Below, piece after piece: positions 1,827-19,092 of a stretch of 44,456 nt of DNA. The notes beneath the pieces were generated by a model. The model had not been told where the DNA came from and made no database searches. It worked only from the letters and a program-made list of their open reading frames with translations. Made by a program: the position numbers and the translations under genes. The DNA is from a virus, in IMG/VR virus record IMGVR_UViG_3300045912_000212, positions 1 through 44,456 of that record; one strand, 5' to 3'. Every line of letters starts with the position of its first letter. Position 1 is the first letter of the stretch.

Positions 1827-1910
1827 ACTATGTCCTCCATGATTGTGTTTGGGCGCTAAACTGACGGCCAGAACCAGACTACTGCATCAGGCCCTTTTGC
1901 ACAACATCAT

Positions 1911-2093: not shown

Positions 2094-2094
2094 G

Positions 2095-2343: not shown

Positions 2344-2372
2344 ACTCACTCTCCTCTCCTTCGTCATCTCTG

Positions 2373-4391: not shown

Positions 4392-4553
4392 CTACACGCC
4401 CTCAGCCTCTGGCCACGGACCGCGCACAACATCACGGGCGTAGCGGTACGCCCACTGCGCCGGCCTCATAATCAATAGAGTATGAGTGGTGATGGTGAGG
4501 GCCGTGCTCTGACACAGGCTCTGATAGGCAGCATCCAGTAGTCTTAATCTCAT
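4392..4553 (-). CDS. Small ORF between promoter and retron RNA, 53 aa
   Basis: The ATG at 4553 follows an AGAGGAG ribosome site by about 8-10 nt and the frame runs to the TAG at 4392, 14 nt before the ncRNA stem begins. The product starts MRLRLLDAAYQSLCQSTALT and has an amphipathic aromatic C-terminal half (RPAQWAYRYARDVVRG). It fills the space between the predicted promoter (4596-4624) and the ncRNA, so it should be first in the RT transcript. Small accessory ORFs occur in some retron operons as effectors or antitoxins. No family recognised, and function is open. Confidence 0.55.
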   Translation of the reverse strand: MRLRLLDAAYQSLCQSTALTITTHTLLIMRPAQWAYRYARDVVRGPWPEAEGV

Positions 4554-4595: not shown

Positions 4596-4625
4596 ATCAT
4601 GACGCAGTGTTTACTGCGAGTCAAC
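4596..4625 (-). promoter_or_regulatory. Leftward promoter with embedded XRE-type operator (retron unit)
   Basis: Read leftward: -35 TTGACT (4624-4619), a 17-nt spacer and -10 CATGAT (4601-4596). The -35 and spacer overlap an imperfect palindrome GTGTTTACT-N3-AGTCAAC at 4607-4625, which matches 17 of 19 bases with the site at 19001-19019 in front of the early operon. The three-base centre is the only difference. An independent hairpin-like CGCAGT-GTTT-ACTGCG (4603-4618) overlaps it. I infer that the regulator at 19093-19338 represses both promoters. Confidence 0.6.
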
Positions 4626-4691
4626 GATCAGATTCTCATTGTTTGAAACTCTTAGTACTAAATCCCGTGCGAAAACGACCTAGACCGCCTC

Positions 4692-4729
4692 TGGAAATTC
4701 ACCTAGCTAGGCGTTATGATGGCTAGGTG
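4692..4729 (+). promoter_or_regulatory. Rightward promoter, possibly leaderless, with flanking inverted repeat
   Basis: TGGAAA (4692-4697), 17 nt, TATGAT (4715-4720), then 6 nt to the GTG start at 4727. There is no Shine-Dalgarno site, so the message may begin at or next to its start codon. The inverted repeat CACCTAGC (4700-4707) and GCTAGGTG (4722-4729) brackets the -10, and CCTAGCTAGG (4702-4711) is itself a palindrome, giving likely repressor sites. Confidence 0.45.
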
Positions 4730-5098
4730 CCCACGGGTGTACACAGATCGGTAGCAGGGACCGAGAGGCTCTGCCAGTGGTGCCAGAGGCCCTACCCTGT
4801 CCGGCAGCCTCATCAGGTATACTGCTCGCCAGGCTGCCGTCAGTATGCGTGGCGGTATGAGCAGATCCAGAGAGTGCTCATGAGGATCATCCGGGCGGGG
4901 GGCCTCGACCAGTACCGTGAGGAGCAGGTGGACATGGCCCGGTCTGGGGGCAGGCCCAGACGTTCGGCGGAGTGGTGGGCGCGGTGGAGGGAGAGGAGAG
5001 GAGCCGAGGCGGCTCCGGCCTCCGGCTCCTCTGCTCCAGTGGAGCTAGCGGGTAAAGGGGCGGTCCAGCAGTCCCATGCGGTTGAGGACTCCGAGTAG
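4727..5098 (+). CDS. Zinc-finger protein, 123 aa
   Basis: A short N-terminus is followed by a treble-clef-like zinc-binding motif (LCQWCQRPYP ... YCSPGCRQYAWR, a CxxC plus CxxxC set), a basic helical region and a low-complexity Ala/Glu/Ser tail. Such small proteins are usually nucleic-acid binding. A related finger occurs in the protein at 7449-7859. The gene points away from the retron unit and its 3' end overlaps the convergent gene at 5045-5368 by 54 bp. The only usable start is the GTG at 4727, which fits a leaderless promoter. It may regulate the divergent retron unit, but this is inference. Confidence 0.75.
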   Translation: MPTGVHRSVAGTERLCQWCQRPYPVRQPHQVYCSPGCRQYAWRYEQIQRVLMRIIRAGGLDQYREEQVDMARSGGRPRRSAEWWARWRERRGAEAAPASGSSAPVELAGKGAVQQSHAVEDSE

Positions 5099-5368
5099 GG
5101 TCCTCTGGTCCTGCTCGTTTATCCTCGCCCGGTTCACGGGAGTTCTCCGGCGGGAAGGGCGGGCGGACTGCCACGACGATCCCCGGGCGCCGTGAATCAT
5201 GGATGTCACAGCAGCGGAGAGATCCTGGGAGAATTTCTCCATACCGGCCAGGGAGGTAAATACCAGGTCCACTACGGAACCGTCCCGGTCCTCCAGGGAG
5301 AGTACCGTAGTAGCTCTGCCCCGTCTGGCGCAGATCATCACAGGAGAGTGGCAGGTGGTAATCGCCAT
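5045..5368 (-). CDS. Hypothetical protein, 107 aa
   Basis: The ATG at 5368 is 2 nt after the upstream stop, so it is co-translated within the leftward operon. A beta-rich N-terminal half (ATTVLSLEDRDGSVVDLVFTS) is followed by an amphipathic helix (GMEKFSQDLSAAVTSMIHG) and a basic C-terminus ending NEQDQRTLLGVLNRMGLLDR. Function unknown. Its 3' end overlaps the convergent zinc-finger gene tail to tail, so the two transcripts are antisense to each other there. Confidence 0.7.
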   Translation of the reverse strand: MAITTCHSPVMICARRGRATTVLSLEDRDGSVVDLVFTSLAGMEKFSQDLSAAVTSMIHGARGSSWQSARPSRRRTPVNRARINEQDQRTLLGVLNRMGLLDRPFTR

Positions 5369-5370
5369 GA

Positions 5371-5904
5371 TCAGGCTACGGGAGACCGGAATGCGTAGTA
5401 ACTGTTCAGGGACGAGAACACCGGCTGGTTGCGTTCGAGCAGACGGATCGTGACCGAATCTCCCATGTCCGGCTGGCCCTCCGACCGCAGGATTTCATCC
5501 ACGAGCGTCTGGAGAATGTGAAATGGAGCAGCAGATTCTCCGTTCGCGCCGGTCAGCCGTGCCAGCCACATCCCGCAGTTCATGTTGGCGTAGGCGGTGT
5601 TCTGGCCGGGCGAGATATCGAGCGGCAGCCGGACCTCCAGAGTGTACTGGTAGGCGTAATCCGGGTCGATAATCTCAGAAGGTATCTGGCGGACAGGCAC
5701 CAGTCCTGCTCCGTAGGCGGCTCCCGCCGGACTCCTCAGGTTGATAGCGAGTTGGCCCGTTTCCAGGCCTGCTCTGCTGACCCACTCCCGGTACAGTCCG
5801 GCTTGAACCAGAGTGCAGTTCTGAGCCGGGTTTCCGGATGCTCCATTTTGCCTCAGGTATTCAGCCTGAGCCAGAACAGGACTGATGACTGGCGTGATGT
5901 TCAT
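5371..5904 (-). CDS. Hypothetical protein, 177 aa
   Basis: AAGGAG lies 7 nt before the ATG at 5904. The protein is soluble and mixed alpha/beta, with a Gly/Ala/Pro-rich middle (RSPAGAAYGAGLVPVRQIP) and a helix near FHILQTLVDEILRSEG. No motif recognised. It follows the DNA polymerase gene by 42 bp and precedes 5045-5368 by 2 nt. Its composition resembles small virion proteins more than enzymes, but its position is among replication genes, so I leave the role open. Confidence 0.72.
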   Translation of the reverse strand: MNITPVISPVLAQAEYLRQNGASGNPAQNCTLVQAGLYREWVSRAGLETGQLAINLRSPAGAAYGAGLVPVRQIPSEIIDPDYAYQYTLEVRLPLDISPGQNTAYANMNCGMWLARLTGANGESAAPFHILQTLVDEILRSEGQPDMGDSVTIRLLERNQPVFSSLNSYYAFRSPVA

Positions 5905-5946
5905 AAGATCTCCTTGTTGATGCGTTGGTTGCTACGGGACGGATCT

Positions 5947-7368
5947 CTACTTCAGGTCCGCCCATGTCGGCCCGGTGGAGGCTGAGGCTCCCACCGGAAT
6001 GGAGAGTTCCACCGCCTCCATCATAATCCGTTTCACATCAGCCAGGAACTCACCGGCGATGTGGGGAGAAAGCTCGAAAACCAGTTCGTCGTGGATTTGC
6101 AGCAGCGGCCAGATGCGGCAATCCGGATACGCCTCCTCCCACTGTTCCACGAGATCCATGATCTCAGCCGTGGCCAGTTTCAGAATGCCCTGAGCTGTCG
6201 CTTGAATCGGCATATTCCCGGCCTGCCGGAACGCAGCCCGTCTGATGCGGGGTATCGTGGAGAGCGCTTCCGGTACCAGGCGCACCCGTCCGAACCAGTC
6301 CCACACCATGCCGTAGCGCCTCGCACGGGAATGCTGGAGATCCAGCCAGGCCCGTATGCCACGGTAGTAGCGGAACCACTCCTCAATCAGCTTTTCGCAC
6401 TCCTCTACCGTCCACAGCGGCCCTCCGTTCGAGAGGATATTGCCCTGGAGGCCAAGGCCGGACTGGCCGTAGAGGATGGCGAATCCAGCGGTTTTCGCCG
6501 GGAGCCGGTAGTTCTGCTTGAAGTGTTTCCATTCGCTCCTCTCCTGATCCGTCCAGAGTACGGTTTCTCCGGCCTCCTCCTGTTTAGCCATTAAAGCTAA
6601 CCGCTCGTACTTAGCCCGGTCCAGACGGAACACATTGACGGCGGTCTGAGTGTGGATGTCGGCTCCCAACAGGAATGCCGAGATCATGTTCCGGTCCTGG
6701 GATAGATCTCCGGCCAGAACCATCTCAATCTGGCTCAGGTCCGCCGAGGCCAGGACGCATTGGCGTCCGCATTGGTCCTTGCCGGGAATGAACCCCTGAC
6801 GGATTCTCATGCCGTCCTGGGTTCGGGCGGGGATGTTCTGAAGGTTCGGGTTCTCGGAGGACAACCGGCCCGTGTCGGTACTGGTGTGACGGAACGTGGT
6901 ATGGAGCCTCCCAGTGTGAGGGTGAATCATCCGGGGCAGCTTGCGGGCGTAAGTGCCGTCCAGTTTGTCCAGAGCGCGGTACTCCAGGATGAGGCCCACA
7001 ACCGGGTGGGCGTTCTTCAGACTGGAGAGGATATCGGCGTCCGTCACATCCCTGCCCGTGGCTGTCCGCTTACGGCCTGTGGGCGGAGTGAGCCTCAGTT
7101 CATCGAATAGCAGAGGCCCTACCTGGTCCCCGCTGATGGGGTTGATCTCCCGGCCCACGATGGAGTGAATTTCATCCCGGATGGATTGAAGCCGCTGTTG
7201 GAACTCGGCTGACAGGGCCTGGAAGTAAGAGACGTCGAGAAGAGCGCCATGCTGGTGGAACCGGGTCAGCATCCGGAACGTGCCCTGATCGAGCCTCTGG
7301 GCGTTGGGCAGACAGGGATAGTCCAGGACGCGAACCCCGCCGTAACAGGTTTGGGGAGTGACGGGCAT
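5947..7368 (-). CDS. polA: Family A DNA polymerase, polymerase domain only, 473 aa
   Basis: Replicative or repair DNA polymerase of the PolI family. The thumb region is at about 25-140, the palm box TDTGRLSSENPNLQNIP at 164-180, motif A SADLSQIEMV (208-217, catalytic D210), motif B RLPAKTAGFAILYG (288-301, K292 and F296 at the Klenow K758/F762 positions) and motif C QIHDELVFE (424-432, catalytic D427). Phe at 296 predicts discrimination against dideoxynucleotides, by analogy with the family. There is no room for a 5' nuclease or 3'-5' exonuclease domain. A matching 3'-5' exonuclease is encoded separately as a fusion at 11285-12733, so proofreading may be supplied in trans. Confidence 0.95.
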   Translation of the reverse strand: MPVTPQTCYGGVRVLDYPCLPNAQRLDQGTFRMLTRFHQHGALLDVSYFQALSAEFQQRLQSIRDEIHSIVGREINPISGDQVGPLLFDELRLTPPTGRKRTATGRDVTDADILSSLKNAHPVVGLILEYRALDKLDGTYARKLPRMIHPHTGRLHTTFRHTSTDTGRLSSENPNLQNIPARTQDGMRIRQGFIPGKDQCGRQCVLASADLSQIEMVLAGDLSQDRNMISAFLLGADIHTQTAVNVFRLDRAKYERLALMAKQEEAGETVLWTDQERSEWKHFKQNYRLPAKTAGFAILYGQSGLGLQGNILSNGGPLWTVEECEKLIEEWFRYYRGIRAWLDLQHSRARRYGMVWDWFGRVRLVPEALSTIPRIRRAAFRQAGNMPIQATAQGILKLATAEIMDLVEQWEEAYPDCRIWPLLQIHDELVFELSPHIAGEFLADVKRIMMEAVELSIPVGASASTGPTWADLK

Positions 7369-7448
7369 GGTTGCTCAGAACTCCATCTCCGCTACCCTCA
7401 GCTTTACTCTGGATCTCGTCCACCGCTTTCCCTCCAGGCAGCCGGGCG

Positions 7449-7859
7449 TCATAGTTCCGGCCTCCACCGCCTCATCAGATTCAAAGAATGGTTGAGCCCC
7501 TGGAGTCTATGGGCGCACCGGCTTGAGCATGTCCGGCGGGGATAGACCCTGACTGTACAGAACCGGCCCCGTCTGCGGAGCTGGAACGGCGGATAAAACA
7601 TCCGCTGGCACCATGCGCAGATCCGTGGCTGAACTTTGTCCGGGGTCATCACATCCAGGCGTTCCCGCCGGACGATCTTCATGCGTCCCGTTTCCATTCT
7701 GATAATGGCTTCCTCCATCAACCAGTCGCAGAGTCCCATCCATGTCCCTTCATAATCCGGGTGGCCCTGCGGGAGGCCTTGGGAGATCAGGGAATCCAGG
7801 CGGCGGCGGGCGTCTCTCTGCTCTCTCAGGCAGCGCCCAAGTCCAGACGCCGCGTTCAC
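7449..7859 (-). CDS. Zinc-finger protein, 136 aa
   Basis: An N-terminal helical region is followed by a C-terminal zinc motif (RICAWCQRMFYP ... FCTVRV ... TCSSRCAHRL), i.e. CxxC plus CxxxC as in the protein at 4727-5098. The start is a GTG overlapping the stop of the upstream gene (GTGA), with GAGGAG before it. Likely nucleic-acid binding. The 80 bases between it and the polymerase gene hold nothing identifiable. Confidence 0.78.
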   Translation of the reverse strand: MNAASGLGRCLREQRDARRRLDSLISQGLPQGHPDYEGTWMGLCDWLMEEAIIRMETGRMKIVRRERLDVMTPDKVQPRICAWCQRMFYPPFQLRRRGRFCTVRVYPRRTCSSRCAHRLQGLNHSLNLMRRWRPEL

Positions 7860-8260
7860 AGCTTAGGCTCCTCGCGGCTCATACTCAAAATGAGTTGGTG
7901 GGCAATTCTCAACTTCTCCTTCCACTGCTCCCCCAGTACGGGAGACAACAGAGGTCCGAGACGGCTTTCTACAGCGTCATTCTGGCCGGAACCGGCGGGA
8001 CGGTTTCCGTCTGTAGCCTCCCGCGCTGCCTCCAAGACGGCGGAAGCCACGTCCGCAGCCTCAACGGGGGTTAGTCTCACCCGTTCGCCTGTCCCGCCGT
8101 ACCCGCGCCCGAGCCAAATTTCCACGGCAGGAGCCACATTACAGGCCCCGCCGGACGGAACGGCCACAACCGCCAGGCTCAGGGTTCGTACGGTATCCAC
8201 GCCGTCTTGGCGGCAGAGCGGCAGATAGACCGTCTCCCTTCCATACTTCTCGATCTTCAT
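7856..8260 (-). CDS. Hypothetical protein, 134 aa
   Basis: An N-terminal beta-rich part (ETVYLPLCRQDGVDTVRTLS, VEIWLGRGYGG) is followed by helices (AADVASAVLEAAREA; QWKEKLRIAHQLILSMS). It overlaps both neighbours by 4 nt (ATGA/GTGA type), so it is translationally coupled. No recognised domain. Position among replication and small regulatory genes suggests an early-phase role. Confidence 0.72.
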   Translation of the reverse strand: MKIEKYGRETVYLPLCRQDGVDTVRTLSLAVVAVPSGGACNVAPAVEIWLGRGYGGTGERVRLTPVEAADVASAVLEAAREATDGNRPAGSGQNDAVESRLGPLLSPVLGEQWKEKLRIAHQLILSMSREEPKL

Positions 8261-8613
8261 ACGTCCTCCTGTTTCTCAAGCAAATCTGTATCGTCCAGAT
8301 CCACACAGATCTCACAGCGTTGTGCGCCGTCCGGCATCGTGATTATTTCCAGTCCAGTACGGCTGTAGCCACAGCGCTCACAGACGGTGATATCCACGCC
8401 CCCGGTTTCTTCCAAGGCGCTGTAAATCAGAACCACACGCCACTCCCATTCTCCCCGGGCGGGCCGAACCTCTATCCTCTGAGGCTCCCGGACCAGCAGT
8501 CTTGTCTCGCGGGATTCGGACGGGTCCGGAACGGCCCACTCCTCAACGCCAATCGACACCACTGAAGATTCAGGCAGATTCGCCAGCACTCTTACTAGAT
8601 CTCTTACCTTCAC
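8257..8613 (-). CDS. Zinc-ribbon-like hypothetical protein, 118 aa
   Basis: I start at the GTG at 8613 because AAAGGAGG lies 6-8 nt upstream. The longer frame to 8682 lacks a site. Residues from the start (VKVRDLVRVLANLPESSVVS) form an alpha/beta N-terminus. A C-terminal pair of CxxC motifs (VCERCGY ... RCEICVD) predicts one zinc ion. The stop overlaps the next gene by 4 nt. The fold resembles small phage proteins with a ribbon at the end. Function unknown. Confidence 0.75.
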   Translation of the reverse strand: MKVRDLVRVLANLPESSVVSIGVEEWAVPDPSESRETRLLVREPQRIEVRPARGEWEWRVVLIYSALEETGGVDITVCERCGYSRTGLEIITMPDGAQRCEICVDLDDTDLLEKQEDV

Positions 8614-8633
8614 GACAGGCCTCCTTTCGGTTC

Positions 8634-8816
8634 CTAGACCGCTACGGAATTGAGCCAGGCCATAAACAGGATGAGAAGCCATCCGGCGGCAGCCCCATGG
8701 GCCAGAATGAACCAGATCACAGGCCAGCGGCGGGAGGGCGGCAGGTCGTCCCAGTCCATCCAGGATTCACGGCAGAGGCGGATGTAGGAGCTTCTGATCT
8801 TCAGGCGCAGAGTCAT
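8634..8816 (-). CDS. Small membrane protein, 60 aa
   Basis: The ATG at 8816 overlaps the stop of the XF1762-like gene (ATGA). A charged N-terminal half (MTLRLKIRSSYIRL ... DDLPPSRR) is followed by one transmembrane segment (PVIWFILAHGAAAGWLLILF). The larger 139-residue frame reaching 9053 would overlap the well-supported upstream gene and is rejected. Role unknown. Confidence 0.65.
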   Translation of the reverse strand: MTLRLKIRSSYIRLCRESWMDWDDLPPSRRWPVIWFILAHGAAAGWLLILFMAWLNSVAV

Positions 8817-9280
8817 TGTACGTTTTCCTCCATTCGTAACCGGATCTCCCACCGCAGTTTGCGTACAGTAGGGTGTTTGTCCTGGCGGAAGCGGGATGGT
8901 CTGCACCATGACCCCCCTCCGGCCTCGCCCGCCAACGTCCACCCCGAGGCCCGGAGTGATGCGCCGCCCTCCTCCGGCAGAGTGTAGGTGGCCAGCCGCC
9001 GGTAACCCATGGCGGCGGCCACTCGCCGGATCGCCCCATAAAGCATGGAGCACGCGTTCTTAGTCCCGTCCGTGCAGAGTCTGGTTACTTCGAGGGTCAG
9101 TCCGTCATCGAGCATCCGGGTGGCAGGACGGCCCGCAATACCGGCTCCGGCTTGGCGCCCCGCCTTATCAACTAGTCCTACAGCGAACTTTGCGCCAACG
9201 GCGGGCGGGTGGTGGCGGTGATATTCCCGGACGTACTGATTAGCGGCACGGAGTGTTAGCGGCACGATGCTGAGCCTCAT
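8813..9280 (-). CDS. XF1762-like protein (acetyltransferase-fold family), 155 aa
   Basis: The sequence strongly resembles the XF1762 family as I know it from phages and plasmids: HRHHPPAVGAKFAVGLVD (about 21-38), MLDDGLTLEVTRLCTDGTKN, CSMLYGAIRRVAAAMGYRRL, TYTLPEEGGASLRASGW and DKHPTVRKLRW near the end. The central region resembles the GNAT fold with a GY(R)RL helix. The biochemical activity of the family is, to my knowledge, unproven. It overlaps both neighbours by 4 nt inside the early operon. An anti-host or DNA-modification role is only speculation. Confidence 0.85.
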   Translation of the reverse strand: MRLSIVPLTLRAANQYVREYHRHHPPAVGAKFAVGLVDKAGRQAGAGIAGRPATRMLDDGLTLEVTRLCTDGTKNACSMLYGAIRRVAAAMGYRRLATYTLPEEGGASLRASGWTLAGEAGGGSWCRPSRFRQDKHPTVRKLRWEIRLRMEENVQ

Positions 9281-9621
9281 AGATTAGGCCACTCCGCCAT
9301 CCGGCAGAGCCCCTCCAGAACCGGATGCCCCGCACACAGACTCTCGATGGAGCGGCGGGTTTTCAGGCTCAGTCTGGTGCGTGCTTGGCGTCCCTGCACC
9401 AGACGGTTGAGCGTGACGTAATGCAGGTCGAGTTTGACAGCTAAGTCTCTCTGGGTCATGTGCAGCTCTCTGATCATGGCCCGGAGCAGGAACCCCAGAG
9501 ATGGCCGCCTGTACTCATACCACGGCAGGGACGGCTGCTGCTGGGCCGGATCCGGCAGAACGGGCCGGGAGGCCGACAGGGCCAGATTGAGCACGTCGAG
9601 GGGAGACAGGTTCAGTTTCAT
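9277..9621 (-). CDS. HTH DNA-binding protein, 114 aa
   Basis: A Cro/XRE-like helix-turn-helix is visible at LHMTQRDLAVKLDLHYVTLN (roughly residues 53-72), followed by RLVQGRQARTRLSLKTRRSI. The N-terminal 45 residues are Pro/Leu-rich and unstructured in part. GAGG stands 6 nt before the ATG. A second regulator besides the one at 19093-19338; it sits deep in the early operon, so it may act as a Cro-like or late-switch factor. Confidence 0.78.
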   Translation of the reverse strand: MKLNLSPLDVLNLALSASRPVLPDPAQQQPSLPWYEYRRPSLGFLLRAMIRELHMTQRDLAVKLDLHYVTLNRLVQGRQARTRLSLKTRRSIESLCAGHPVLEGLCRMAEWPNL

Positions 9622-9630
9622 TGCGCAACC

Positions 9631-10041
9631 TCAGACCCAGTACCCGATGCTGATGCCGATTCGCCAGTATCCATGGGACTTTAGCCAGTAGTGGAAATTC
9701 TCGTAGAGGGAGACGGTCTGCTCCTCCCAGCCTCCTCCGGATCGCATGAAAACGCTGATAACAGGGGCCCACGGGATGATTCTCACCGGCATAATCCACC
9801 ACGGCGTCCGGCGTGGATCCGGTTTCAGTCTGGATCGTTCTGGAATGCCCGTCCATCCCGGCAGAGTGTACAGAGTCACGTTGATTACGTCCGGGATGCG
9901 GTTGTCCCCGGACTGCCGTTCAAACAGCGTCCACAGCCTGGCAATGCAGACACGCAGCCGTCCAGGGGCTGTGTATTCAGCGCCCATGGACCCCAGTTCT
10001 ACGCTGAACACCGCTGAGTCGAGTTTCCGTCTGATGGTCAC
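9631..10041 (-). CDS. Hypothetical protein, 136 aa
   Basis: The GTG start at 10041 overlaps the upstream TGA. Beta-rich with many Trp, Arg and Ile (WWIMPVRIIPWAPVISVFM, FHYWLKSHGYWRIGIS). No transmembrane helix of convincing length and no recognised motif. Only 9 nt separate it from the HTH gene. Confidence 0.68.
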   Translation of the reverse strand: MTIRRKLDSAVFSVELGSMGAEYTAPGRLRVCIARLWTLFERQSGDNRIPDVINVTLYTLPGWTGIPERSRLKPDPRRTPWWIMPVRIIPWAPVISVFMRSGGGWEEQTVSLYENFHYWLKSHGYWRIGISIGYWV

Positions 10042-10217
10042 TTCTGATTCTCCTCCTCCTCCTTCTTACCCCGCAGTGGAGCGGTCATTCTGCCGTAAGC
10101 GGGGCACCGGTAGTTCTGGCACACCATAGCCCTGTTGGACAGTTCCGCGAGTCTGTTGCGGCAGACGGGACAGAACCTGTCAGGATGGTGGAGCCTTTCC
10201 CTCTGTGTCCTGGTCAT
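10038..10217 (-). CDS. Small zinc-finger protein, 59 aa
   Basis: This gene overlaps both neighbours by 4 nt. The product carries FCPVCRNR and, after 15 or so residues, VCQNYRCPAYG, a CxxC plus CxxxxC set typical of one-zinc ribbons, and ends in a Lys/Glu-rich tail (RGKKEEEENQK). Likely a nucleic-acid-binding accessory factor. The tight coupling and clear zinc ligands make it convincing despite its size. Confidence 0.72.
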   Translation of the reverse strand: MTRTQRERLHHPDRFCPVCRNRLAELSNRAMVCQNYRCPAYGRMTAPLRGKKEEEENQK

Positions 10218-10756
10218 TCCTCGTTCTCCTCTTCCTGCTCCTCGGCGGCGAGCTGGCTGATCAGGCCCTCCAGCTCATCCAGGGCCTCGGCTTTCTCCGC
10301 CGCCTTCCTGTCAACCAGAGCGGAGAGCGGAGACCTGATGGACCCCTTTCTCCGCGCCGCTGGCGGAGCCGGAACCTCCCCTGGAGGAGCCGCTGGAGTC
10401 CCAGGCAGGGGATTCCGTCCCGCCAGAACTCCCATGACGTTCGACCTGAGTTCCTGTTCGGTGAACTCCCTTATCCAGGCCATCATCAGAACGTCCCGCA
10501 CGATCCCAGCCGTTCCAGGCAGCAGATAAACCAAGACGGAGAGCGTCCTGCCGTCCTCCTCCTGAACCCGGACTTCATCAAGGGTGACCCTGAACTTCTG
10601 GACCCCTGACACCCACTCCACCCGTCCCACCAGATATCTGGACGTTCTGTCCGGCGGAGGCGTCAGATAGACAGCGGTATCGGGCACTACCACTCTCCAG
10701 ACGCACGGACTGATCTGTATGACCTCCGCTCTCCTGGCTCCACTACCCTCACTCAT
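10214..10756 (-). CDS. Hypothetical protein with Pro-rich linker and acidic coiled tail, 180 aa
   Basis: GGAAGGAG precedes the ATG at 10756. Beta-rich N-terminal domain (about 1-100, VWRVVVPDTAVYLTPPPDRT), Pro/Ala linker (about 115-135, TPAAPPGEVPAPPAARRKG) and a C-terminal acidic coiled coil (EKAEALDELEGLISQLAAEE). It is the first gene after the AT-rich gap 10757-11284, so its promoter should lie there. An OB-type fold plus acidic tail would suggest an ssDNA-binding accessory factor, but I cannot confirm that. Confidence 0.75.
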   Translation of the reverse strand: MSEGSGARRAEVIQISPCVWRVVVPDTAVYLTPPPDRTSRYLVGRVEWVSGVQKFRVTLDEVRVQEEDGRTLSVLVYLLPGTAGIVRDVLMMAWIREFTEQELRSNVMGVLAGRNPLPGTPAAPPGEVPAPPAARRKGSIRSPLSALVDRKAAEKAEALDELEGLISQLAAEEQEEENEE

Positions 10757-11284
10757 GACGGCTCTCCTTCCTAATAGAAAGACTCTCTTACGCGCGTAGA
10801 TAACAGGCTAACGCTAACAGGCTAATTAGCGTGTTAGCATTTCACGTTTCTATGGTGAACTTTTGATCGTTTGACAGGGAGTGGCCTGAAGTCCCGTAAA
10901 CCACTGAAAAGAAACCACACGCCTGTACAAACCTAGGATATTTCCTACATTTCCGGTACAAAACGCAGTAGACATTATTTTGTGTCTAGGAGACACTACG
11001 CTCAGAAGTTGACATAACCGGAGTTGACAATAACCCGTATATGATCCTGTAGTGTATCGTTCGGAGGCTGTTTCCGGTAGTAGTGTATCGTTCGGCGAAC
11101 GCCGAATTAGGCCGCTTTGCAGGCCGTCGGAGTCCGCCAGACGGAAATCTAAAAGTGTAATCGCTCCTAGCACGGTTTCGTTTTCTATTAATAATGGCCC
11201 ACTGTTAGCAGTATGTGTAATTGATAGTCCGATGTTAGCGTCTAAACTGCTCACCGTCCACATAGAGTCTCCTGGTAACAGAGG
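10757..11284. other. AT-rich repeat region, candidate replication origin or control region
   Basis: This 528-base gap is the only long AT-rich stretch in the replication operon. It holds a 26-bp near-perfect palindrome (10813-10838, GCTAACAGGCTAA and its mirror with one mismatch), with a further partial copy of its arm at 10802-10812. It also has a perfect palindrome GTGTCT-AGG-AGACAC (10982-10996), twin AGTTGACA boxes (11007-11014, 11022-11029) and two 15-bp direct repeats TAGTGTATCGTTCGG (11050-11064, 11081-11095) 31 bp apart. Clustered iteron-like repeats, palindromes and AT-richness fit an origin or parS-like site. A poorly supported ORF (10850-11263) overlaps it. Confidence 0.45.
10850..11263 (-). 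CDS. Doubtful ORF across the AT-rich region, 137 aa
   Basis: An AGGAG site lies 6 nt before the ATG at 11263, only 21 bp after the upstream gene, which argues for translation. The first 50 residues look protein-like (GPLLIENETVLGAITLLDF). Against it, codon choice is AT-rich and unlike the neighbours, the frame crosses the direct repeats, and the second half is low in helical or strand-forming patterns. It could be a recent import, or a short coding stretch read into control DNA. Confidence 0.35.
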   Translation of the reverse strand: MWTVSSLDANIGLSITHTANSGPLLIENETVLGAITLLDFRLADSDGLQSGLIRRSPNDTLLPETASERYTTGSYTGYCQLRLCQLLSVVSPRHKIMSTAFCTGNVGNILGLYRRVVSFQWFTGLQATPCQTIKSSP

Positions 11285-12733: not shown

Positions 12734-13212
12734 GACACCTTGCCCTTGGCCTTTTCCAGAATCGCCGCAGCCTCGGCCCTCTGGGCCGACAGCCTTATTT
12801 CCCGCTCAGTCAGAATCGACAGCAGAACATCAGTGAGATTCCTCGATCCGGTACGGTTGTCCCGGCGGTAGGAGTCTACCTTCCTTTTCAGTCCTGGCAT
12901 GACCCTCTCCAGAGACTCGATCATGTAGAGGGTGACTGGCTCCGCCATCTCCGGAAACACGATCCGGTCCCGATAACGCACACAGTGGTCCCAGAACGGC
13001 AGCGGGGCACGGCTGGCCTTTTCGATCCGCTTCATGGACTCCTCGCGCTCCTGGGAGTAGTGGGCCACAGAGTACAGCAGAGCGTCAGCGGAGGATAGCT
13101 CACGGCCCCGTTTTGCCCGCTGGTATATCTGGCTGATGCCTGGAAACTGATTTTCCAGAGCTAGAACGATGGTGCTGTAGTAGCGTTCGGAGTGATTATT
13201 TTCCTGGTTCAT
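12730..13212 (-). CDS. Hypothetical helical protein, 160 aa
   Basis: I start at the ATG at 13212 (MNQENNHSERYYS) because AGGAGG precedes it by 6 nt. The frame continues to 13227. Mostly helical and charged, with a C-terminal coiled-coil stretch (TEREIRLSAQRAEAAAILEK). It overlaps the nuclease gene by 17 nt and the UDG-exonuclease gene by 4 nt, so all three are coupled. Possibly a replication or recombination accessory protein. No family recognised. Confidence 0.75.
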   Translation of the reverse strand: MNQENNHSERYYSTIVLALENQFPGISQIYQRAKRGRELSSADALLYSVAHYSQEREESMKRIEKASRAPLPFWDHCVRYRDRIVFPEMAEPVTLYMIESLERVMPGLKRKVDSYRRDNRTGSRNLTDVLLSILTEREIRLSAQRAEAAAILEKAKGKVS

Positions 13213-13966
13213 GTCCGTCCTCCTCATCTTGTTGGCCGGCTAGGGACCGCACGATCCTCATAGCCGTTTTCTTTCCGATACCTGGAATTTGTGCAAGCTC
13301 ACCCGGCGAGGCGCAGCACAAATCCATAACGCTGCGGTAGCGTTCCGCGATGGCTCCGCTTCTCTCCCACCCCACGCCGGGCAGCTCTTTAGCTACGCGG
13401 CGTAGTAGTGAGGGCTTCTGGTACAGAACCCGGTCTGGCGGCGGACTGTAGATAGTCTTGTGCGAGCGGTGCTGGTCCCATGGCCGGCCAAACCAGAGAT
13501 AGATGGACTTCACGGCGCTTATCACATCAGCCACCGTTCTGCACCGCCGGACATGGAATCCGCACCTTAGTTCAAGGGTCTGTAGATACCCCTCCAGCTC
13601 CCTCCACAGGAATCCGGACGCGCCCAACTGTATCTGCATCCAGCCGCCCCGCACGGGAATCTCCAGCAGCCCGGAATCGCCTTCTCTCCACTGCCCGAGC
13701 ACAAGCAGGTAGCGGAACTGGTAGGTCCGTACCATGCCTGGGACCTGGTGGCCCGCCAGACGCCCGTCTCTACACGACTTCAGCAGATCATTTAGGCGCT
13801 TATACTCAATGCCGATGCTGCATTCGCCATCCGGCCCGTAACCGTTGAATCGAATATCGCCGTAGTCCAGCCGGGCCAGTTCAGCGTTCAGTCCGCCGAT
13901 CCGGAGAGAGTACACTAGCGATGAGCTTCCGGCTCTGCCGTCTACCTGAATCACTCTCTCCGTCAC
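13196..13966 (-). CDS. ERCC4/XPF-family nuclease with helix-hairpin-helix, 256 aa
   Basis: Structure-specific endonuclease fold: LDYGDIRF then IGIEYKRLNDLLKSCRDGRL, corresponding to the GDxxx...(V/I)ERKxxxDLxxSxxDGR signature, with Tyr in place of the Arg of ERK. A C-terminal HhH follows (LAQIPGIGKKTAMRIVRSL). Such enzymes cut flaps, forks and recombination intermediates. I chose the GTG at 13966 because TTGGAG precedes it. The longer frame to 14041 overlaps the upstream gene by 61 nt. Likely works with the Sak4-like ATPase and DinG-like helicase upstream. Confidence 0.86.
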   Translation of the reverse strand: MTERVIQVDGRAGSSSLVYSLRIGGLNAELARLDYGDIRFNGYGPDGECSIGIEYKRLNDLLKSCRDGRLAGHQVPGMVRTYQFRYLLVLGQWREGDSGLLEIPVRGGWMQIQLGASGFLWRELEGYLQTLELRCGFHVRRCRTVADVISAVKSIYLWFGRPWDQHRSHKTIYSPPPDRVLYQKPSLLRRVAKELPGVGWERSGAIAERYRSVMDLCCASPGELAQIPGIGKKTAMRIVRSLAGQQDEEDGHEPGK

Positions 13967-13980
13967 GGCTGGCTCCAAGA

Positions 13981-14247
13981 CTACTGGCCCCTGCTGTGCA
14001 TTCTGTAAAGTTTTTCCAACAGGATGTTCAGGGCCTGACATACAACATCCGCTTCACACTGGCCGGGCTGGTACAGGCATAACAGTGGAGTGTTGATGGC
14101 TCGGGCCTCCCCGTGCTCAAGGTAGATCATCCAGCAGCCGGCCCCAGGAATGGCATAGACGCGGCCAGATAACAGAGAGTTCAGTCCACCGTAGGGCGGA
14201 TATGCGTTCTGGTTCAGAGCGCTGACGATGATAGCTCCGTGTGTCAT
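13981..14247 (-). CDS. Hypothetical protein, 88 aa
   Basis: Overlaps the upstream ATPase stop by 4 nt (ATGA). Mixed alpha/beta with a conserved-looking middle (YAIPGAGCWMIYLEHGEARA) and a C-terminal helix (VVCQALNILLEKLYRM). The 14-nt gap to the ERCC4 start supports this stop-start arrangement. Function unknown. Confidence 0.68.
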   Translation of the reverse strand: MTHGAIIVSALNQNAYPPYGGLNSLLSGRVYAIPGAGCWMIYLEHGEARAINTPLLCLYQPGQCEADVVCQALNILLEKLYRMHSRGQ

Positions 14248-15011
14248 ACCCAGTCCCCCTCTTTGCTTTCTGGGAAGCAGAGCTGTCCGAGCGTGGAGAA
14301 GGTGTTCAGGGGCCCGATCAGCTCTACTCCAATCACGTCCATGGTCTGATACCGGCTGTCGATGATCCGGGTTCCGAACAACCTGTTCTCGGCATCCAGG
14401 TAGTGCTCCACGATGACATCAGCGATGAACCCGAAATCCGTGAAGCCGGCCCTTTCGTATTTGCCGCTCCAGGAGTCCTTGCCTTCCTTGTTGGTCTTGT
14501 ACTCTTTCTTCACTTTATGAATCCAGACTGAGTTCAGGCCGGGCCTTCTCTGCACAGTCTTTAGCAGTTCGCGGAACTCAGCGTTTACCGGGCCGTAGTG
14601 GTGCGGCATGACCTGAGTGAGCTTGCCGAACCGGGCCAGCCTCAGCAGCTCCCATACCTCAGTGGCCGTGTCCACTACTAAGCCCCGGATGGACTTGTCG
14701 CTAACCGCCGTCCGGATCGCCGCTTCCACCTGATCCCACAGTTTCGCGTTGATAGCCGCGTCCGGAGCCCTCTTCAACGGCTCATATTCAAAATAGTGGA
14801 TCTTCTTTCCCTGCCGCTTCCAGTAACTAGCCACTTCCAGGGTTCCCGTGTCGCTGCTCACAACGGCTATGGGTTCCGGCATGGTGAATGCCCAGTGTGT
14901 CTTGCCCCGCTTCTCGTGACCCGAACTGCAAACCATCAGCGAAGGCTGAGACCTGCCGGTAATTTCCGTAAACCCTGCATGGGCCAGGCTGCCTTTAGGT
15001 TCGACTGCCAT
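14244..15011 (-). CDS. RecA-fold ATPase (AAA_24 / Sak4-like), 255 aa
   Basis: P-loop ATPase with Walker A GHEKRGKT (31-38, a relaxed GxxxxGKT) after a short beta strand (SLMVCSS), and a Walker B-like RGLVVDTATE near 107. Overall it matches the phage AAA_24/Sak4 group, which promotes single-strand annealing or recombination together with an SSB. Start at the ATG at 15011, 2 nt after the upstream stop; the 269-residue version would overlap. Genes for a candidate SSB and a helicase lie just upstream, making a coherent recombination-replication block. Confidence 0.82.
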   Translation of the reverse strand: MAVEPKGSLAHAGFTEITGRSQPSLMVCSSGHEKRGKTHWAFTMPEPIAVVSSDTGTLEVASYWKRQGKKIHYFEYEPLKRAPDAAINAKLWDQVEAAIRTAVSDKSIRGLVVDTATEVWELLRLARFGKLTQVMPHHYGPVNAEFRELLKTVQRRPGLNSVWIHKVKKEYKTNKEGKDSWSGKYERAGFTDFGFIADVIVEHYLDAENRLFGTRIIDSRYQTMDVIGVELIGPLNTFSTLGQLCFPESKEGDWV

Positions 15012-15013
15012 AA

Positions 15014-15370
15014 CTAGAGTCCCTCCCCTCTCCGGCCCGTGACGATCCGCCACAGAAGGGACAGCCAGTTCATCTGTGAGTACATCCTCTCCAGGCTAAG
15101 GTAGTAGATCACCACATCGGCCAGAGTCCGGCCTGCGTGGCGTCCCTGACTGATCTCGGTTCTGTAGTGCTCTCTCAGGTACAGGGTAATTCTGCTGATG
15201 CACTCCGCCTCGTCCCTGACGGCTTGGAGTTCGGCCCGTCTCTGGGCTAGAGTCCTGGTGAGCATCTCCAGTTCCTCTTTGAGTTGCTCCGCCGGGCCCA
15301 GAGGCTCATGGGTGGCTGGTATGGACTGGTATTCCAAATCTTTGCCGGAAGGCATTCTGATAACTTCCAT
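15014..15370 (-). CDS. Coiled-coil hypothetical protein, 118 aa
   Basis: Start at the ATG at 15370 (MEVIRMPSGKDLEYQ), preceded by GAGGAG. The upstream 89-residue extension is Arg-rich shadow sequence. The middle is a coiled coil (EQLKEELEMLTRTLAQRRAE), and the C-terminus has a short hydrophobic stretch (NWLSLLWRIVTG) that may be amphipathic. It follows the hairpin at 15408-15437 and precedes the ATPase by 2 nt. Confidence 0.72.
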   Translation of the reverse strand: MEVIRMPSGKDLEYQSIPATHEPLGPAEQLKEELEMLTRTLAQRRAELQAVRDEAECISRITLYLREHYRTEISQGRHAGRTLADVVIYYLSLERMYSQMNWLSLLWRIVTGRRGEGL

Positions 15371-15407
15371 CGTCCTGTCTCCTCTTCGATCTCTACAATT
15401 CAGATAG

Positions 15408-15437
15408 GGCCCGTGGCGTATTCGTATGCCACGGGCC
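15408..15437. terminator. Strong hairpin downstream of the candidate SSB gene
   Basis: GGCCCGTGGCGTA (15408-15420) and TATGCCACGGGCC (15425-15437) form a 13-bp stem with one G-T wobble and a 4-nt loop. On the coding strand it comes 8 nt after the SSB-like stop and has no T-tract, so it may be a partial terminator or an RNA-stability element that raises the SSB-like product over downstream genes. Confidence 0.62.
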
Positions 15438-15444
15438 GGGTCTG

Positions 15445-16263
15445 CTACAGGCTCACGTCCTCGCCGGTCACGTTGAAACCGTTTTCCTTCAGGAAAGCGG
15501 GATCGCAGATGTGATCCAAAAACTGGTTGCTCTCCTTGCCGGGCTTCAGGCCGAAGTTTTTCACCTGGCGCATCCCGCGCAGCCGGAGCTGCCTGATCGG
15601 ACTCTTGCCGTTGGCCTGAAGATCCTCGCTGATCCACGAGACTGCGGAGGCTAGCAGTTCCACGCTGTAGTCATCCTTCGAGTCGTACGCCGTGGCCTTC
15701 TCCGTTCTGTTGTCAGCTTTGCCCGCCGCCGCCGGGGCCGTCTTGCCTTTCCGGTCCCACGGCAGGCTGATGATCTTGCTACAAACCAAGATGGTTTTCT
15801 CACGCTCACGCCCGTCCGGGCGCGTACTGGCGCTGGAAACCAGTCCGTCACGCTTCGGGGCGGGCACCCGCTTGATGTGAATTTTCGCTCCAATCAGAAC
15901 TGAAACATCTCCGTCGGTGAGAGGGTCGAGGTTCGCTCCGTGGTCCACCATGCTTTGGAGGAACAGGCCGAGATTGCTATTCTTCGACAGGTTCGACCTG
16001 GTTCCGTTTTGGATCAGCGTGCGCCCGTCCGTATCGGGGTCCGGGGCGAAGTCCGCCACGCTGCCAGCGCTGAACAGATGATCGTGTTCGGTGAAGCTGT
16101 CGTCTCCGAGCACGCGGAACTTGACCTGCAAAGCCAGCGCCGTGGCGCTGGGCAGGGAGCCGTCGTAGTCAGTAGCAATAAATCGAGCATCCAGCACTTC
16201 CACGTCCTGGTCGTCGATTAGTCCTGACTGAACGAAATCACGCGGGTTCAAACTTACGTTCAT
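15445..16263 (-). CDS. Putative single-stranded DNA-binding protein, 272 aa
   Basis: The beta-rich N-terminus (DVEVLDARFIATDYDGSLP, ALALQVKFRVLGDD, HLFSAGSVADFAPDPDTDG, SNLGLFLQSMVDHG) follows a pattern I associate with phage SSB-like proteins found next to Sak4 ATPases and DinG helicases. A Lys/Ala-rich linker (about 165-185) separates a second small domain. The neighbourhood between helicase and ATPase supports the role. I cannot assign a named family from sequence alone, and a capping or recombination-mediator function remains possible. Confidence 0.6.
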   Translation of the reverse strand: MNVSLNPRDFVQSGLIDDQDVEVLDARFIATDYDGSLPSATALALQVKFRVLGDDSFTEHDHLFSAGSVADFAPDPDTDGRTLIQNGTRSNLSKNSNLGLFLQSMVDHGANLDPLTDGDVSVLIGAKIHIKRVPAPKRDGLVSSASTRPDGREREKTILVCSKIISLPWDRKGKTAPAAAGKADNRTEKATAYDSKDDYSVELLASAVSWISEDLQANGKSPIRQLRLRGMRQVKNFGLKPGKESNQFLDHICDPAFLKENGFNVTGEDVSL

Positions 16264-16334
16264 GTCTGATCTCCTGATTCTGAGGTTGATCCGGCTGATA
16301 AAAACTGGCCTGGGCCAGTCATAACAGATGAAAA

Positions 16335-17960
16335 CTAAAAGGGCACGCCCATCTCCGTGAGCAGCGGCGGCGGCGGACTGGGTACGTTTTCCCGTTTACG
16401 ATAAAGCTGCCTGAACCACGGCGGAAATAATCCCGGCCTCCAACGGATGATGCGGTCCACCGTGTCATCGAGGATGAAGGTCTCGCAGCGGTCATTTTCG
16501 GCCCTCATGCCACGCCCGCACATCTGGACCAGTTCCTGGGCCATGAGGTAGTGTGAATAGTTGCCGTCCTCTTCCACCCGCACCCTGACCAGTCCGGATG
16601 AATGGTCTGGATAGGGAGCCTTCAGGATGATCTGATACTCACACTGCTGGTATGGAAAATCGTAACCTGTGCCCATGCTCGGGGTGACCAGAATCGCCGG
16701 AGCCTCCGATAGCCTGAAACTAGCGGCGGCGTCTACGGCCTCTCCCCGCACGGGTGTGTGACTGATCATGTAGTCCCGGTACGCGCTCCTGGCAATGACC
16801 TCGTGCGCCCTCTGGTAGCTCGTGGTGTGAATAATCCCCTTGCGGTCGAGGCGCGAGCCGATTATCTGGTCGATCTTCTCCAGTTGTAGATTCATCGCCT
16901 TCTCCCGGTTCTTGTAGTTACTGCGGACAGTCGGGATGTGGTAAATAGGACTGCGGGAAGCGGGAAAGCTGTAGGGATGGTCACGGAAGGTAAGCTCGGA
17001 CGGCGGTACGCCGAGCAGGTCCATGGTTTTAGGCAGGAGGGTGGCCGAGACGAGGACAATCTTAGGCACCTTGTTCCATAGAACCTCCTCCGCGTAGAGT
17101 TTAGCCCAGAGGGGAGACAGACGGTATGCTGTTTTCCGCCTGTCTACCTCATCAGGGACCGTCTCAGCCAGCCAGTGACCCTTGATGGAGCTTAAGCGTT
17201 TCAGTTTACCCAGCAGATTGCGCAGAGCCTTCACGCGGCGGACGACATCAACACTGGCCGTGCCGGAGCGTAGATCCTCCTGGTAGCACTCAATCTGCTG
17301 TTCACACCGCTGTACATGGCTTAAAGCCCACCTGGTCCACTGGTTGATGATGTAGTAGGTCCTGGGGGGTCCCGTTCTGAGCAGGTCCAGATCCCGAGGC
17401 GTAATGACACAGCTCACCGTACTGGTGACGATCTCCGGAGCGTCGTGAGCCTCGTCACAGATGAGCAGATCCACCGCTCCTAGCCCCTCGCCAAAGAAGT
17501 TGATTGCCGACCAGTAGGAGTAGTTGGTTACAACGATCTGGCTCTTTAGGCCTTCCAGATATTGCACCATGTAGGGGCAAGTAGGAGGCTTGTCTGAGTT
17601 CCGGCTGCCCTCCCGGCAGCCGTACAGAGGCCCGTCCTCACACGTCAGGCCCGCACGGCTGCCGCAGTCGAATGTGTTCCGGCCTTTAACGCTGACGAGT
17701 CCACACAGGCCGAAGTCTGAAACGAGCTGGTCCTGAAGCCCCTTGGTTGCAGTCAGGATCACGGTGCGCCCGCCGGTGATGAGGGCCTCCGCCATGTAGA
17801 TAGCGCTTTTCCCGCTGCCGGTCGGCAGGGACTGGGCAACAAACCGGGTGCCAGCATCTAGACTCGCTTCGATGGCTCTGACTTGATGATCACGCCAGCG
17901 GGCGAATTTAGGCGGCAGTCCGATGTCTGATGGGGTGATTCCGGCGAGGATACCGGGCAT
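16335..17960 (-). CDS. DinG/XPD-type superfamily 2 helicase with Fe-S cysteines, 541 aa
   Basis: Motif I LPTGSGKS (45-52); a cysteine set at about C99, C107, C115 and C128 in the XPD/DinG 4Fe-4S position; motif II CDEAHD (168-173); motif III VLVSATLLP; motif V MGTGYDFPY; motif VI QMCGRGMRAE near the C-terminus. These enzymes unwind DNA 5' to 3', remove R-loops and fork blocks. Length is shorter than bacterial DinG (about 700), as in other phage versions. It probably serves as the main replication helicase here, since no DnaB-like helicase or primase is visible. The 71 bases to the next gene hold no clear signal. Confidence 0.93.
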   Translation of the reverse strand: MPGILAGITPSDIGLPPKFARWRDHQVRAIEASLDAGTRFVAQSLPTGSGKSAIYMAEALITGGRTVILTATKGLQDQLVSDFGLCGLVSVKGRNTFDCGSRAGLTCEDGPLYGCREGSRNSDKPPTCPYMVQYLEGLKSQIVVTNYSYWSAINFFGEGLGAVDLLICDEAHDAPEIVTSTVSCVITPRDLDLLRTGPPRTYYIINQWTRWALSHVQRCEQQIECYQEDLRSGTASVDVVRRVKALRNLLGKLKRLSSIKGHWLAETVPDEVDRRKTAYRLSPLWAKLYAEEVLWNKVPKIVLVSATLLPKTMDLLGVPPSELTFRDHPYSFPASRSPIYHIPTVRSNYKNREKAMNLQLEKIDQIIGSRLDRKGIIHTTSYQRAHEVIARSAYRDYMISHTPVRGEAVDAAASFRLSEAPAILVTPSMGTGYDFPYQQCEYQIILKAPYPDHSSGLVRVRVEEDGNYSHYLMAQELVQMCGRGMRAENDRCETFILDDTVDRIIRWRPGLFPPWFRQLYRKRENVPSPPPPLLTEMGVPF

Positions 17961-18004
17961 TATTAGTTCCTCCTGCTGCCACGGGCGCGGCCTCTCAGGG
18001 CCGC

Positions 18005-18652
18005 TTAGTTTTCATAATCTAACTGGTCAGGATCAATCTGCGGAGGCAGGCCGGAGCTGCTGTAAGTGGCAGGCCGGTACGAGGCGGGACCGTCCGCTGT
18101 CTCACGCAGCACACGGGCGAATCCTGCCAGTTTGTCCCTGAACTCGGTGAGAAACCGCTTTCGCCATGCGCTCTCTTTAGGAATCGCGTCGATCTGGCTT
18201 TTTACCTGAGCCACGATTCTGATGACGGCCCGCGTGTTGCCGTCGGCTGCGTGCATAGAGCACGTCTTGACCGCCGTCTCAATTGCATTCCGGATGGCCA
18301 GTACAGTCTGCTCGTCTCTCATCTGCTCGGCGATGGCCTCACATGCCATGATCAGATGGCGCGGAACGTCCTGGGCCCGCCGGTGACAAAAGAATGCGTG
18401 GCGGTACACGGCATGGCGGAAGAAGTCCCCGGTTGTTTTGTAGGGGAACCTTTTCGACGCCACGAGAATCTCCACGGCCCGGTGGAGCGTGGGCGGAACG
18501 CGGAATGACTCCCTGACTGAGTGGCCCTTGGCGTCCACTGCGGGACAGACCCACTCCTCGTCGCTGAAATCAAGCTCCGAAGCGTCCCACTTCGGTTCAT
18601 CGTAGAGGTCAGTGAATGTGACCTCCCTGCTGGCTGGCTTGTTCTTAGCCAC
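18005..18652 (-). CDS. Hypothetical protein with possible RHH-like segment, 215 aa
   Basis: The GTG at 18652 follows AGAGGA. The longer frame to 18775 overlaps the upstream gene completely and is rejected. An acidic N-terminus (DEPKWDASELDFSDEEW) precedes VRESFRVPPTLHRAVEILVA, a strand-helix pattern like ribbon-helix-helix DNA binders, then long helices. The C-terminus (QIDPDQLDYEN) is acidic. Second gene of the early operon, so perhaps a regulator or recombination accessory protein. Confidence 0.72.
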   Translation of the reverse strand: MAKNKPASREVTFTDLYDEPKWDASELDFSDEEWVCPAVDAKGHSVRESFRVPPTLHRAVEILVASKRFPYKTTGDFFRHAVYRHAFFCHRRAQDVPRHLIMACEAIAEQMRDEQTVLAIRNAIETAVKTCSMHAADGNTRAVIRIVAQVKSQIDAIPKESAWRKRFLTEFRDKLAGFARVLRETADGPASYRPATYSSSGLPPQIDPDQLDYEN

Positions 18653-18654
18653 GG

Positions 18655-18981
18655 CTAGTTCCTCTTGAGGCTCGGATGGGGGATGACGATGCCGCTGCAC
18701 AGCCGCGCGTGAACCTGGGACATTTCCTCGCGGTGCTGGATCTGCTGCTCGATTAACATTTTCCACTCCGCACAAAAGGCCGCTAGTATGCCCTTTAACG
18801 CATCACAGACAGCGGGACCGAAGTGCAGAGCGATCTCTCCCGATTCTCCCGACGCCTCGTTGTAGCGGCACTCGTCGATGATCCGGCAGGCGTGGCTGAG
18901 CTTTTCCTGGTTAATGGAGATCAGGCGGTCCAAAGCGCTGATCGCCTCAGCTACGGAGCGCTGGTCTAAGGTAGGTTGCAT
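18655..18981 (-). CDS. First gene of the early operon, helical protein, 108 aa
   Basis: The ATG at 18981 (MQPTLDQRSV) lies 7 nt after the predicted -10 (18994-18989), so the message may be leaderless. An in-frame ATG at 18993 overlaps the -10 itself and is unlikely. The product is helical (EAISALDRLISINQEKLSHA, EWKMLIEQQIQHREEMSQVH) with no known domain. It stops 3 nt before the next start. Being first after the repressor-controlled promoter, it is a good candidate for an early takeover protein. Confidence 0.72.
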   Translation of the reverse strand: MQPTLDQRSVAEAISALDRLISINQEKLSHACRIIDECRYNEASGESGEIALHFGPAVCDALKGILAAFCAEWKMLIEQQIQHREEMSQVHARLCSGIVIPHPSLKRN

Positions 18982-18988
18982 GGCACTC

Positions 18989-19024
18989 AGCATACCTTAG
19001 GTGTTTACTAGGAGTCAACACTTA
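18989..19024. promoter_or_regulatory. Early (leftward) promoter with XRE operator
   Basis: Read leftward: -35 TTGACT (19018-19013), 18-nt spacer, -10 TATGCT (18994-18989). The interval 19001-19021 is an imperfect palindrome GTGTTTACT-AGG-AGTCAACAC with one mismatch between arms, covering the -35 and part of the spacer, so a bound repressor would block RNA polymerase. The same half-sites recur at 4607-4625. A weaker rightward promoter (TAGACA near 19023, TATGGT near 19047) diverges from it towards the regulator gene. Confidence 0.68.
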
Positions 19025-19092
19025 GACAACCAGACGGGGACCTCCGTATGGTACTGGTACTCAGGCCGCTGTTGACCTGGGGCAAACAACAC

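Follow-up and report, generated by a model that had tools for sequence, protein, structure and literature searches.

Retrons are mainly described as host defense systems that an effector holds ready. They are also found on phages, as in phiR73, a retronphage that carries the retron Eco3/Ec73 (PMC6868368). As for repressors that act at a distance, a single helix-turn-helix (HTH) repressor of the cluster A mycobacteriophages L5 and TipsytheTRex is described as acting at sites far apart in the same phage genome (PMC9283540). The DNA analyzed here is the virus record IMGVR_UViG_3300045912_000212 from IMG/VR, whose 44,456 bases are called the window throughout. In this window, a retron-like reverse transcriptase (RT) unit and the replication operon of the virus are each preceded by a leftward promoter that carries the same operator-like sequence (O1 and O2, respectively; Table 1). 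On balance, this shared site favors the view that one repressor controls both units.

The sequence-only reading of the window had named a dyad, GTGTTTACT-N3-AGTCAAC, at 4607-4625 and 19001-19019. A sequence search located both copies on the + strand; 17 of the 19 letters are identical, and the mismatches are confined to the central N3. When up to three mismatches were allowed, the genome gave three matches, namely O1, O2, and O2 read on the opposite strand, against a mean of 0.13 in 100 dinucleotide shuffles, none of which reached three. The 17-bp core is present in two copies in the whole record (its backwards-read control in none), and TTGACT is found only twice in the genome, both times on the minus strand, at O1 and O2.

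The two sites overlie the -35 box and spacer of sigma-70-like leftward promoters, and their placement is equal within 1 nt. The earlier description of a leftward TTGACT with a -10 box 17-18 nt away thus holds at both sites. Because about 1.5 promoter-like sites scoring 9/12, a modest consensus match, are expected by chance per region scanned, these calls rest more on position than on score. By position count, transcription from the O2 promoter is predicted to start on the ATG at 18981, which may leave the first early-gene mRNA leaderless.

We infer the following scheme from sequence. O1 and O2 would be 17-bp operators made of two half-sites (GTTKACT, with a 3-bp gap) and bound by a small phage repressor of the XRE type, a dimer of which would cover the -35 box and spacer of the two leftward promoters. 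In the repressed state, the replication operon, which runs leftward from 18981, and a second operon would both be shut. The second operon has a small open reading frame (ORF), a retron-like non-coding RNA (ncRNA) and the RT at its head, and probably runs on to a ParB-like gene. A weaker site, O3, in the leader of the XRE gene would limit the synthesis of the repressor itself. Once repression was lifted, both operons would start together, and any product resembling multicopy single-stranded DNA (msDNA) would fall in the lytic phase.

Table 1. Predicted features of the O1 and O2 regions and of the units that they precede (window coordinates).
Feature	Positions	Strand	Description
Operator O1	4607-4625		GTGTTTACT-N3-AGTCAAC, imperfect dyad; half-sites GTTGACT / GTTTACT on leftward strand; by sequence search
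Operator O2	19001-19021		GTGTTTACTAGGAGTCAACAC; 16/21 letters symmetric
Operator-like O3	19071-19087		GTTGACC-TGG-GGCAAAC; 3 mismatches; in XRE leader
Leftward RT-unit promoter	4596-4624	-	TTGACT-17-CATGAT; 9/12 consensus; O1 covers -35 and spacer
Leftward early promoter	18989-19018	-	TTGACT-18-TATGCT; 9/12 consensus
Rightward XRE promoter	19023-19052	+	TAGACA-18-TATGGT; 9/12; between O2 and O3
XRE/HTH_3 regulator	19093-19338	+	81 aa, or 76 aa from 19108; PF01381 1.2e-10 (run on ORF 19048-19338)
Tyrosine integrase	19292-19984	-	3' end overlaps the 3' end of the XRE gene
Replication (early) gene run	5045-18993	-	helicase, Sak4-like, ERCC4/HHH nuclease-like, PolA in two ORFs, Mom-like, HTH
53-aa ORF	4392-4553	-	GGAG stretch upstream; first ORF of RT unit, between promoter and ncRNA
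Retron-like ncRNA	4175-4376	-	202 nt; long closing stem, two inner hairpins
Retron-like RT	2820-4160	-	446 aa; RT domain ~1-250
Leftward ORFs downstream of RT	463-2795	-	2373-2795, 2095-2460, 1911-2093, 1443-1826, ParB 463-1443

The surroundings of O2 resemble those of a phage lysogeny repressor. The XRE/HTH gene and the early operon diverge, operator-like sites lie between them, and the XRE regulator of lysogeny-repressor layout that had been noticed beside one site was confirmed (PF01381 at 1.2e-10). O2 lies over the early promoter and O3 just past the expected XRE transcription start; two of the three sites, O2 and O3, share their gap with the XRE promoter. In layout, the region resembles an autoregulated phage repressor switch. 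The six half-sites of O1-O3 all fit GTTKRCY. In the 126-bp gap (early gene to XRE gene, taken as 18981 to 19108), the chance of an O3-type site is 0.006 at genome composition and 0.02 at the composition of the gap itself. Because of O3, the observation is stronger than first stated; the XRE promoter between O2 and O3, the 53-aa ORF and the leftward ORFs after the RT are further additions to it. The proximity of O2 to int had also prompted a reading as integrase arm-type sites, which was dropped because O1 lies more than 14 kb away and over a promoter.

The XRE protein is the likely binder of these sites, a view made more likely by O3 in its own leader and by a resemblance to SinR, its best match among solved structures (E 4e-4). 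The SinR half-site is GTTCTYT (PMC3163267), with which GTTKACT agrees at five of seven positions; this post hoc likeness is suggestive support for the XRE protein as the predicted ligand. The five PDB matches of the XRE protein also include a chain named 'Immunity repressor protein' (8bny). The record contains two HTH_3 matches, of which the XRE protein alone exceeds the family cut-off. A structure model made without an alignment reached a predicted local distance difference test score (pLDDT) of 56. At 81 aa the protein is short, and a peptidase domain was not among its reported matches, so SOS-type induction is not implied. The claim of the sequence-only reading that one repressor shuts both units therefore stands in part: the shared operator over two leftward promoters supports it, and the XRE protein as the ligand has been made more likely by O3 and the SinR half-site.

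Another protein of the virus might instead read the sites, either the ParB/KorB-like protein (463-1443), for which they could be partition or silencing sites, or the second HTH protein (9277-9621). The sites of ParB-type proteins are dyads, and in plasmid RK2, KorB uses palindromic operators to control operons at a distance. The ParB-like protein carries the HTH domain PF17762 (2.9e-12), and parB may belong to the O1 operon. Two of the three sites, however, lie on either side of the XRE promoter and, by window position, some 18 kb away from parB, no site is found at parB or at 9277-9621, and the HTH_3 match of the second HTH protein (9385-9486) is below the family cut-off. This alternative is accordingly considered improbable, and the XRE protein is favored.

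The main rival is of a different kind. The shared block could be a promoter module, TTGACT with a conserved spacer (N3-AGTAAAC), read by the host RNA polymerase or a helper factor; the two promoters would then fire at the same early time with no common repressor. Sequences from other phages bear on this possibility. An exact search of viral contigs with the 16-base motif gave 13 matches in 12 stretches. By eye, three stretches that are alike in promoter and neighboring ORFs (L003, L004 and L006) and both sites of a fourth (L008) have the form TTGACT-17/18-TATAAT or TACAAT, as a promoter module would predict. Four others (L007, L009, L011 and L014) are near-identical to one another and without a clear -10 box, and the remaining four (L005, L010, L012 and L013) are not promoter-like by eye. 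A follow-up motif search covered nine of the 12 records. In the L008 record, it gave five copies in the first 5.6 kb, each with at most two mismatches, all in the forward direction and most with good -10 boxes; in the L004 record (G002), GTTGACTNNNAGAAAAC, the AGAAAAC form, is present at four places with one mismatch each. In both records the promoter block, GTTGACT-N3-AGTAAAC (L008, 376-5541) or its AGAAAAC form (G002), is repeated after the -35 box, and no protein of the loci compared matches the window.

These comparisons, together with several features of the window itself, weigh against control by a common repressor. No XRE-like ORF is found in the 12 motif loci (best E 2.7 against the window XRE protein), so that a promoter block of the O1/O2 form exists without an adjacent XRE-like ORF. 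O1 and O2 are asymmetric in the same direction, GTTGACT being the half on the -35 side both times; a promoter motif would account for this just as well. A genome scan with the symmetrized core (GTTKACT-N3-AGTMAAC) gave two exact sites, none with one or two mismatches, and three with three mismatches, where 2.3 were expected; O3 is one of these three, and its weight thus comes from its location. The other two matches, at 19946 and 29462, lie inside ORFs and are at chance level. Outside the window, an extended dyad, GTGTTKACTNNNAGTMAACAC, is present at eight genome loci and five viral loci (four of them already among the motif loci), with no match of the backwards control in viral contigs. The nine new loci contain no XRE-like ORF by phmmer with the window XRE protein or SinR (best E 0.21); since the eight genome matches are, by rough estimate, no more than chance, this neighbor test is uninformative. 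Finally, in six virus records with related RTs, described below, the operator is absent at zero or one mismatch, and at two mismatches it is found at four places in three of the six records, against four control places.

On the other side, O3 resembles the motif outside any good promoter and keeps some of the dyad letters (12/21). The 16/21 symmetry of O2 is not explained by promoter recognition, although O1 reaches only 12/21, and within the window the motif is located at the XRE gene. The promoter module is therefore rated as rather unlikely, and one XRE-type repressor for both units is the reading carried forward. As an observation apart from this, one of the chance-level matches (19946-19962, three mismatches) falls at the start of the integrase ORF, a suggestive location.

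The second of the two units has several retron-like features. NAXXH (region X) and VTG (region Y) are given as retron-specific RT motifs, and the V-to-I change in VTG (ITG) is reported for Vc81 (PMC6868368). The RT of the window contains NAMVH (residues 61-65), QGLPTSP, YADD and ITG (residues 194-196), thus carrying both retron-specific motifs, the second with V changed to I. It matches RVT_1, and retron RTs rank first among its matches to solved structures. The best PADLOC model is RT_XIII (1e-32), with several other retron models close behind, so RT_XIII is one candidate type among several. Directly upstream, the predicted ncRNA has arms of the a1/a2 type with an exact 13-nt complement (4364-4376 with 4175-4187). 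Its 240-nt fold has a computed energy of -112.5 kcal/mol (z-score -4.70), and none of 200 shuffles was as good. By computed fold, the RT thus appears to have beside it a structured RNA with self-complementary arms, as retrons do.

Other properties set this RT apart. Its N-terminus is about 30 to 45 residues shorter than those of three aligned phage retron RTs. The C-terminal ~200 aa (2820-3440) have no Pfam match, and a structure model made without an alignment was unusable (pLDDT 34). Among the neighbors of the RT given to PADLOC, Pfam and NCBIfam, no retron effector was found. The first ORF after the RT starts 24 nt downstream, and the ORFs keep the same direction through to the ParB-like gene; from this orientation and spacing, the RT and the ORFs down to ParB are probably on one transcript. 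With further leftward ORFs including ParB behind it, the RT resembles the first recognized gene of a phage operon more than an isolated cassette. On the opposite strand, an ORF at 4727-5098 (+) points away from the RT unit and lies antisense to the last part of the early operon; a CxxC...CxxxC zinc-ribbon-like motif can be seen in it by eye, with no Pfam match.

The nearest relatives found for the RT are viral, in scans of viral collections and one of genome contigs that gave no match. An alignment scan of the viral collection gave 60 loci, and a 61-row tree places the window RT with L035 and L036 (100/98). A second scan, built on these three RTs, gave 21 loci, including L101, L103, L105 and L106, which the earlier tree leaves out and whose matches all start at residue 1 of the window RT. 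The resulting six related RTs (L035, also L100; L036, also L102; L101; L103; L105; L106) are all in virus records. In five of them, an in-frame stop lies no more than about 20 codons before the match start; the sixth (L102) is open further upstream, and its start is unsure. The C-terminal extension of the window RT is absent from all six. Because the six are all viral, and most are clearly without the usual N-terminus, they point to a virus-resident family of retron-like RTs rather than an inserted defense cassette.

The RNAs upstream of these RTs vary in their support. That of L035 is well supported (z-score -4.93), and that of L036 is not (z-score -1.63, with 7 of 100 shuffles as good). Perfect arms of at least 9 nt are found at three of the six loci (L100, L103 and L106), the folds for L101, L103, L105 and L106 having been made without shuffles. 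By eye, the hairpin region of the structured RNA of L035 (4640-4967) has a CTCGCTCGCA stretch in common with the window RNA. An integrase is present in three of the six records, and an HTH_3 match over the cut-off in one (G014); exact 12-mers shared between the XRE locus and the RT locus of that record, where only exact sharing was considered, include none that is operator-like by eye. Among the loci compared, the related-RT loci share only the RT with the window, and hence have little bearing on the repressor. The search of related viruses for both operators that the sequence-only reading had proposed could be made in these six records, where the counts do not rise above the control; no close relative of the virus itself was found. 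Since the operator is not above chance there, this wiring is not conserved across the RT family.

Two readings of what the RT unit does were weighed. It could be a resident defense cassette with a captured phage operator, which protects the infected cell or kills on induction. The match to the PADLOC retron models, RT_XIII foremost, agrees with this, as does the existence of phage-borne retrons; the Pf-type phage PfAC01b is annotated with a retron RT and an St85-family effector near its repressor. In the window, however, no effector gene is recognized around the RT, the closest RTs found cluster as viral proteins with a short N-terminus, and a ParB-like gene and other non-defense ORFs lie downstream. 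The term 'defense element' used in the sequence-only reading is thus not supported, and we give a captured cassette little credence. The reading tentatively put forward, with considerable reserve, is that a virus-resident, N-terminally short lineage of retron-like RTs has joined the lytic program: the ncRNA and RT would head a second operon under the lysogeny repressor, and msDNA would be made during lytic growth and serve the virus, for example against host defenses or in its own replication, instead of guarding the lysogen.

Features of the record as a whole provide the context. A direct repeat of about 253 bases (1-253 against 44204-44456, with at least one mismatch between the copies) makes it probable that the record is a complete genome of about 44.2 kb, either circular or circularly permuted. 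The integrase adjoining the XRE gene fits a temperate virus. A megablast search of bases 1-25000 against phage and plasmid collections gave no match and thus no near relative; single-protein scans of viral contigs with XRE, RT and PolA gave no close relative of the virus, and an RT scan of genome contigs gave no match. In the early gene run, the family A DNA polymerase is apparently split between 5947-7368 and 11285-12733 (both - strand and both matching phrog_17); the latter ORF corresponds to the middle part and the former to the C-terminal part, and the two are separated by about 4 kb of other genes. A Mom-like DNA modification protein (8813-9280, -; phrog_1384 at 1.1e-32) adjoins the weaker HTH protein (9277-9621). 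Elsewhere, a rightward ORF of 698 aa (42277-44373, +), opposite to most genes, has no PHROG match and no Pfam match over the cut-off. An Rfam scan gave a single sub-threshold match, unrelated to the RT unit.

Compared with retrons, the unit is alike in its NAxxH, YADD and VTG-type (ITG) motifs and in a structured RNA, with complementary arms, that immediately precedes the RT. It differs in its shorter N-terminus, in 200 C-terminal residues without a match, in having no known effector, and in that its RT stands in a virus operon. With phiR73 and, by annotation, PfAC01b it has in common a retron on a mobile phage-like element; the St85-family effector annotated in PfAC01b has no recognized counterpart here. 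To our knowledge, no shared lytic operator is known for phiR73 or PfAC01b. In the literature on retrons in prophages and phages, as far as its titles and abstract openings tell, no retron under a phage lytic operator was found, which is weak evidence of absence. Phage-borne retrons as such are already known. If the wiring is as proposed, a retron-like unit without a recognized effector would be turned on with the replication genes, which raises the question of how msDNA would benefit the virus. The operator pair opens that question to experiment, with one repressor and two promoters in one small virus, and the small group of viral RTs (that of the window and the six others) stands out as a family worth examining.

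The cluster A repressors provide a parallel for a single HTH repressor, here a proposed one, acting at distant sites; the 8bny match is not tied to cluster A. There, more than 20 asymmetric 13-mers are described for a two-domain monomer, whereas here there are two exact dyads and a weak site for a protein with one HTH domain. Stoperators, as many asymmetric sites, are thus not what the window contains, with two exact sites and none further at one or two mismatches genome-wide.

The closest parallels are the lambda-type switch and the SinR-type XRE repressors. The window differs from the lambda-type switch in having one strong operator per promoter in place of a tandem triplet, and a putative repressor of about 80 aa with no recognized peptidase domain and predicted operators. 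It is like both in its 17-bp two-half-site operators over the -35 box and spacer, in a divergent repressor gene, and in a weaker site in the leader of that gene, and SinR, with its similar half-site, is the nearest solved relative of the putative repressor.

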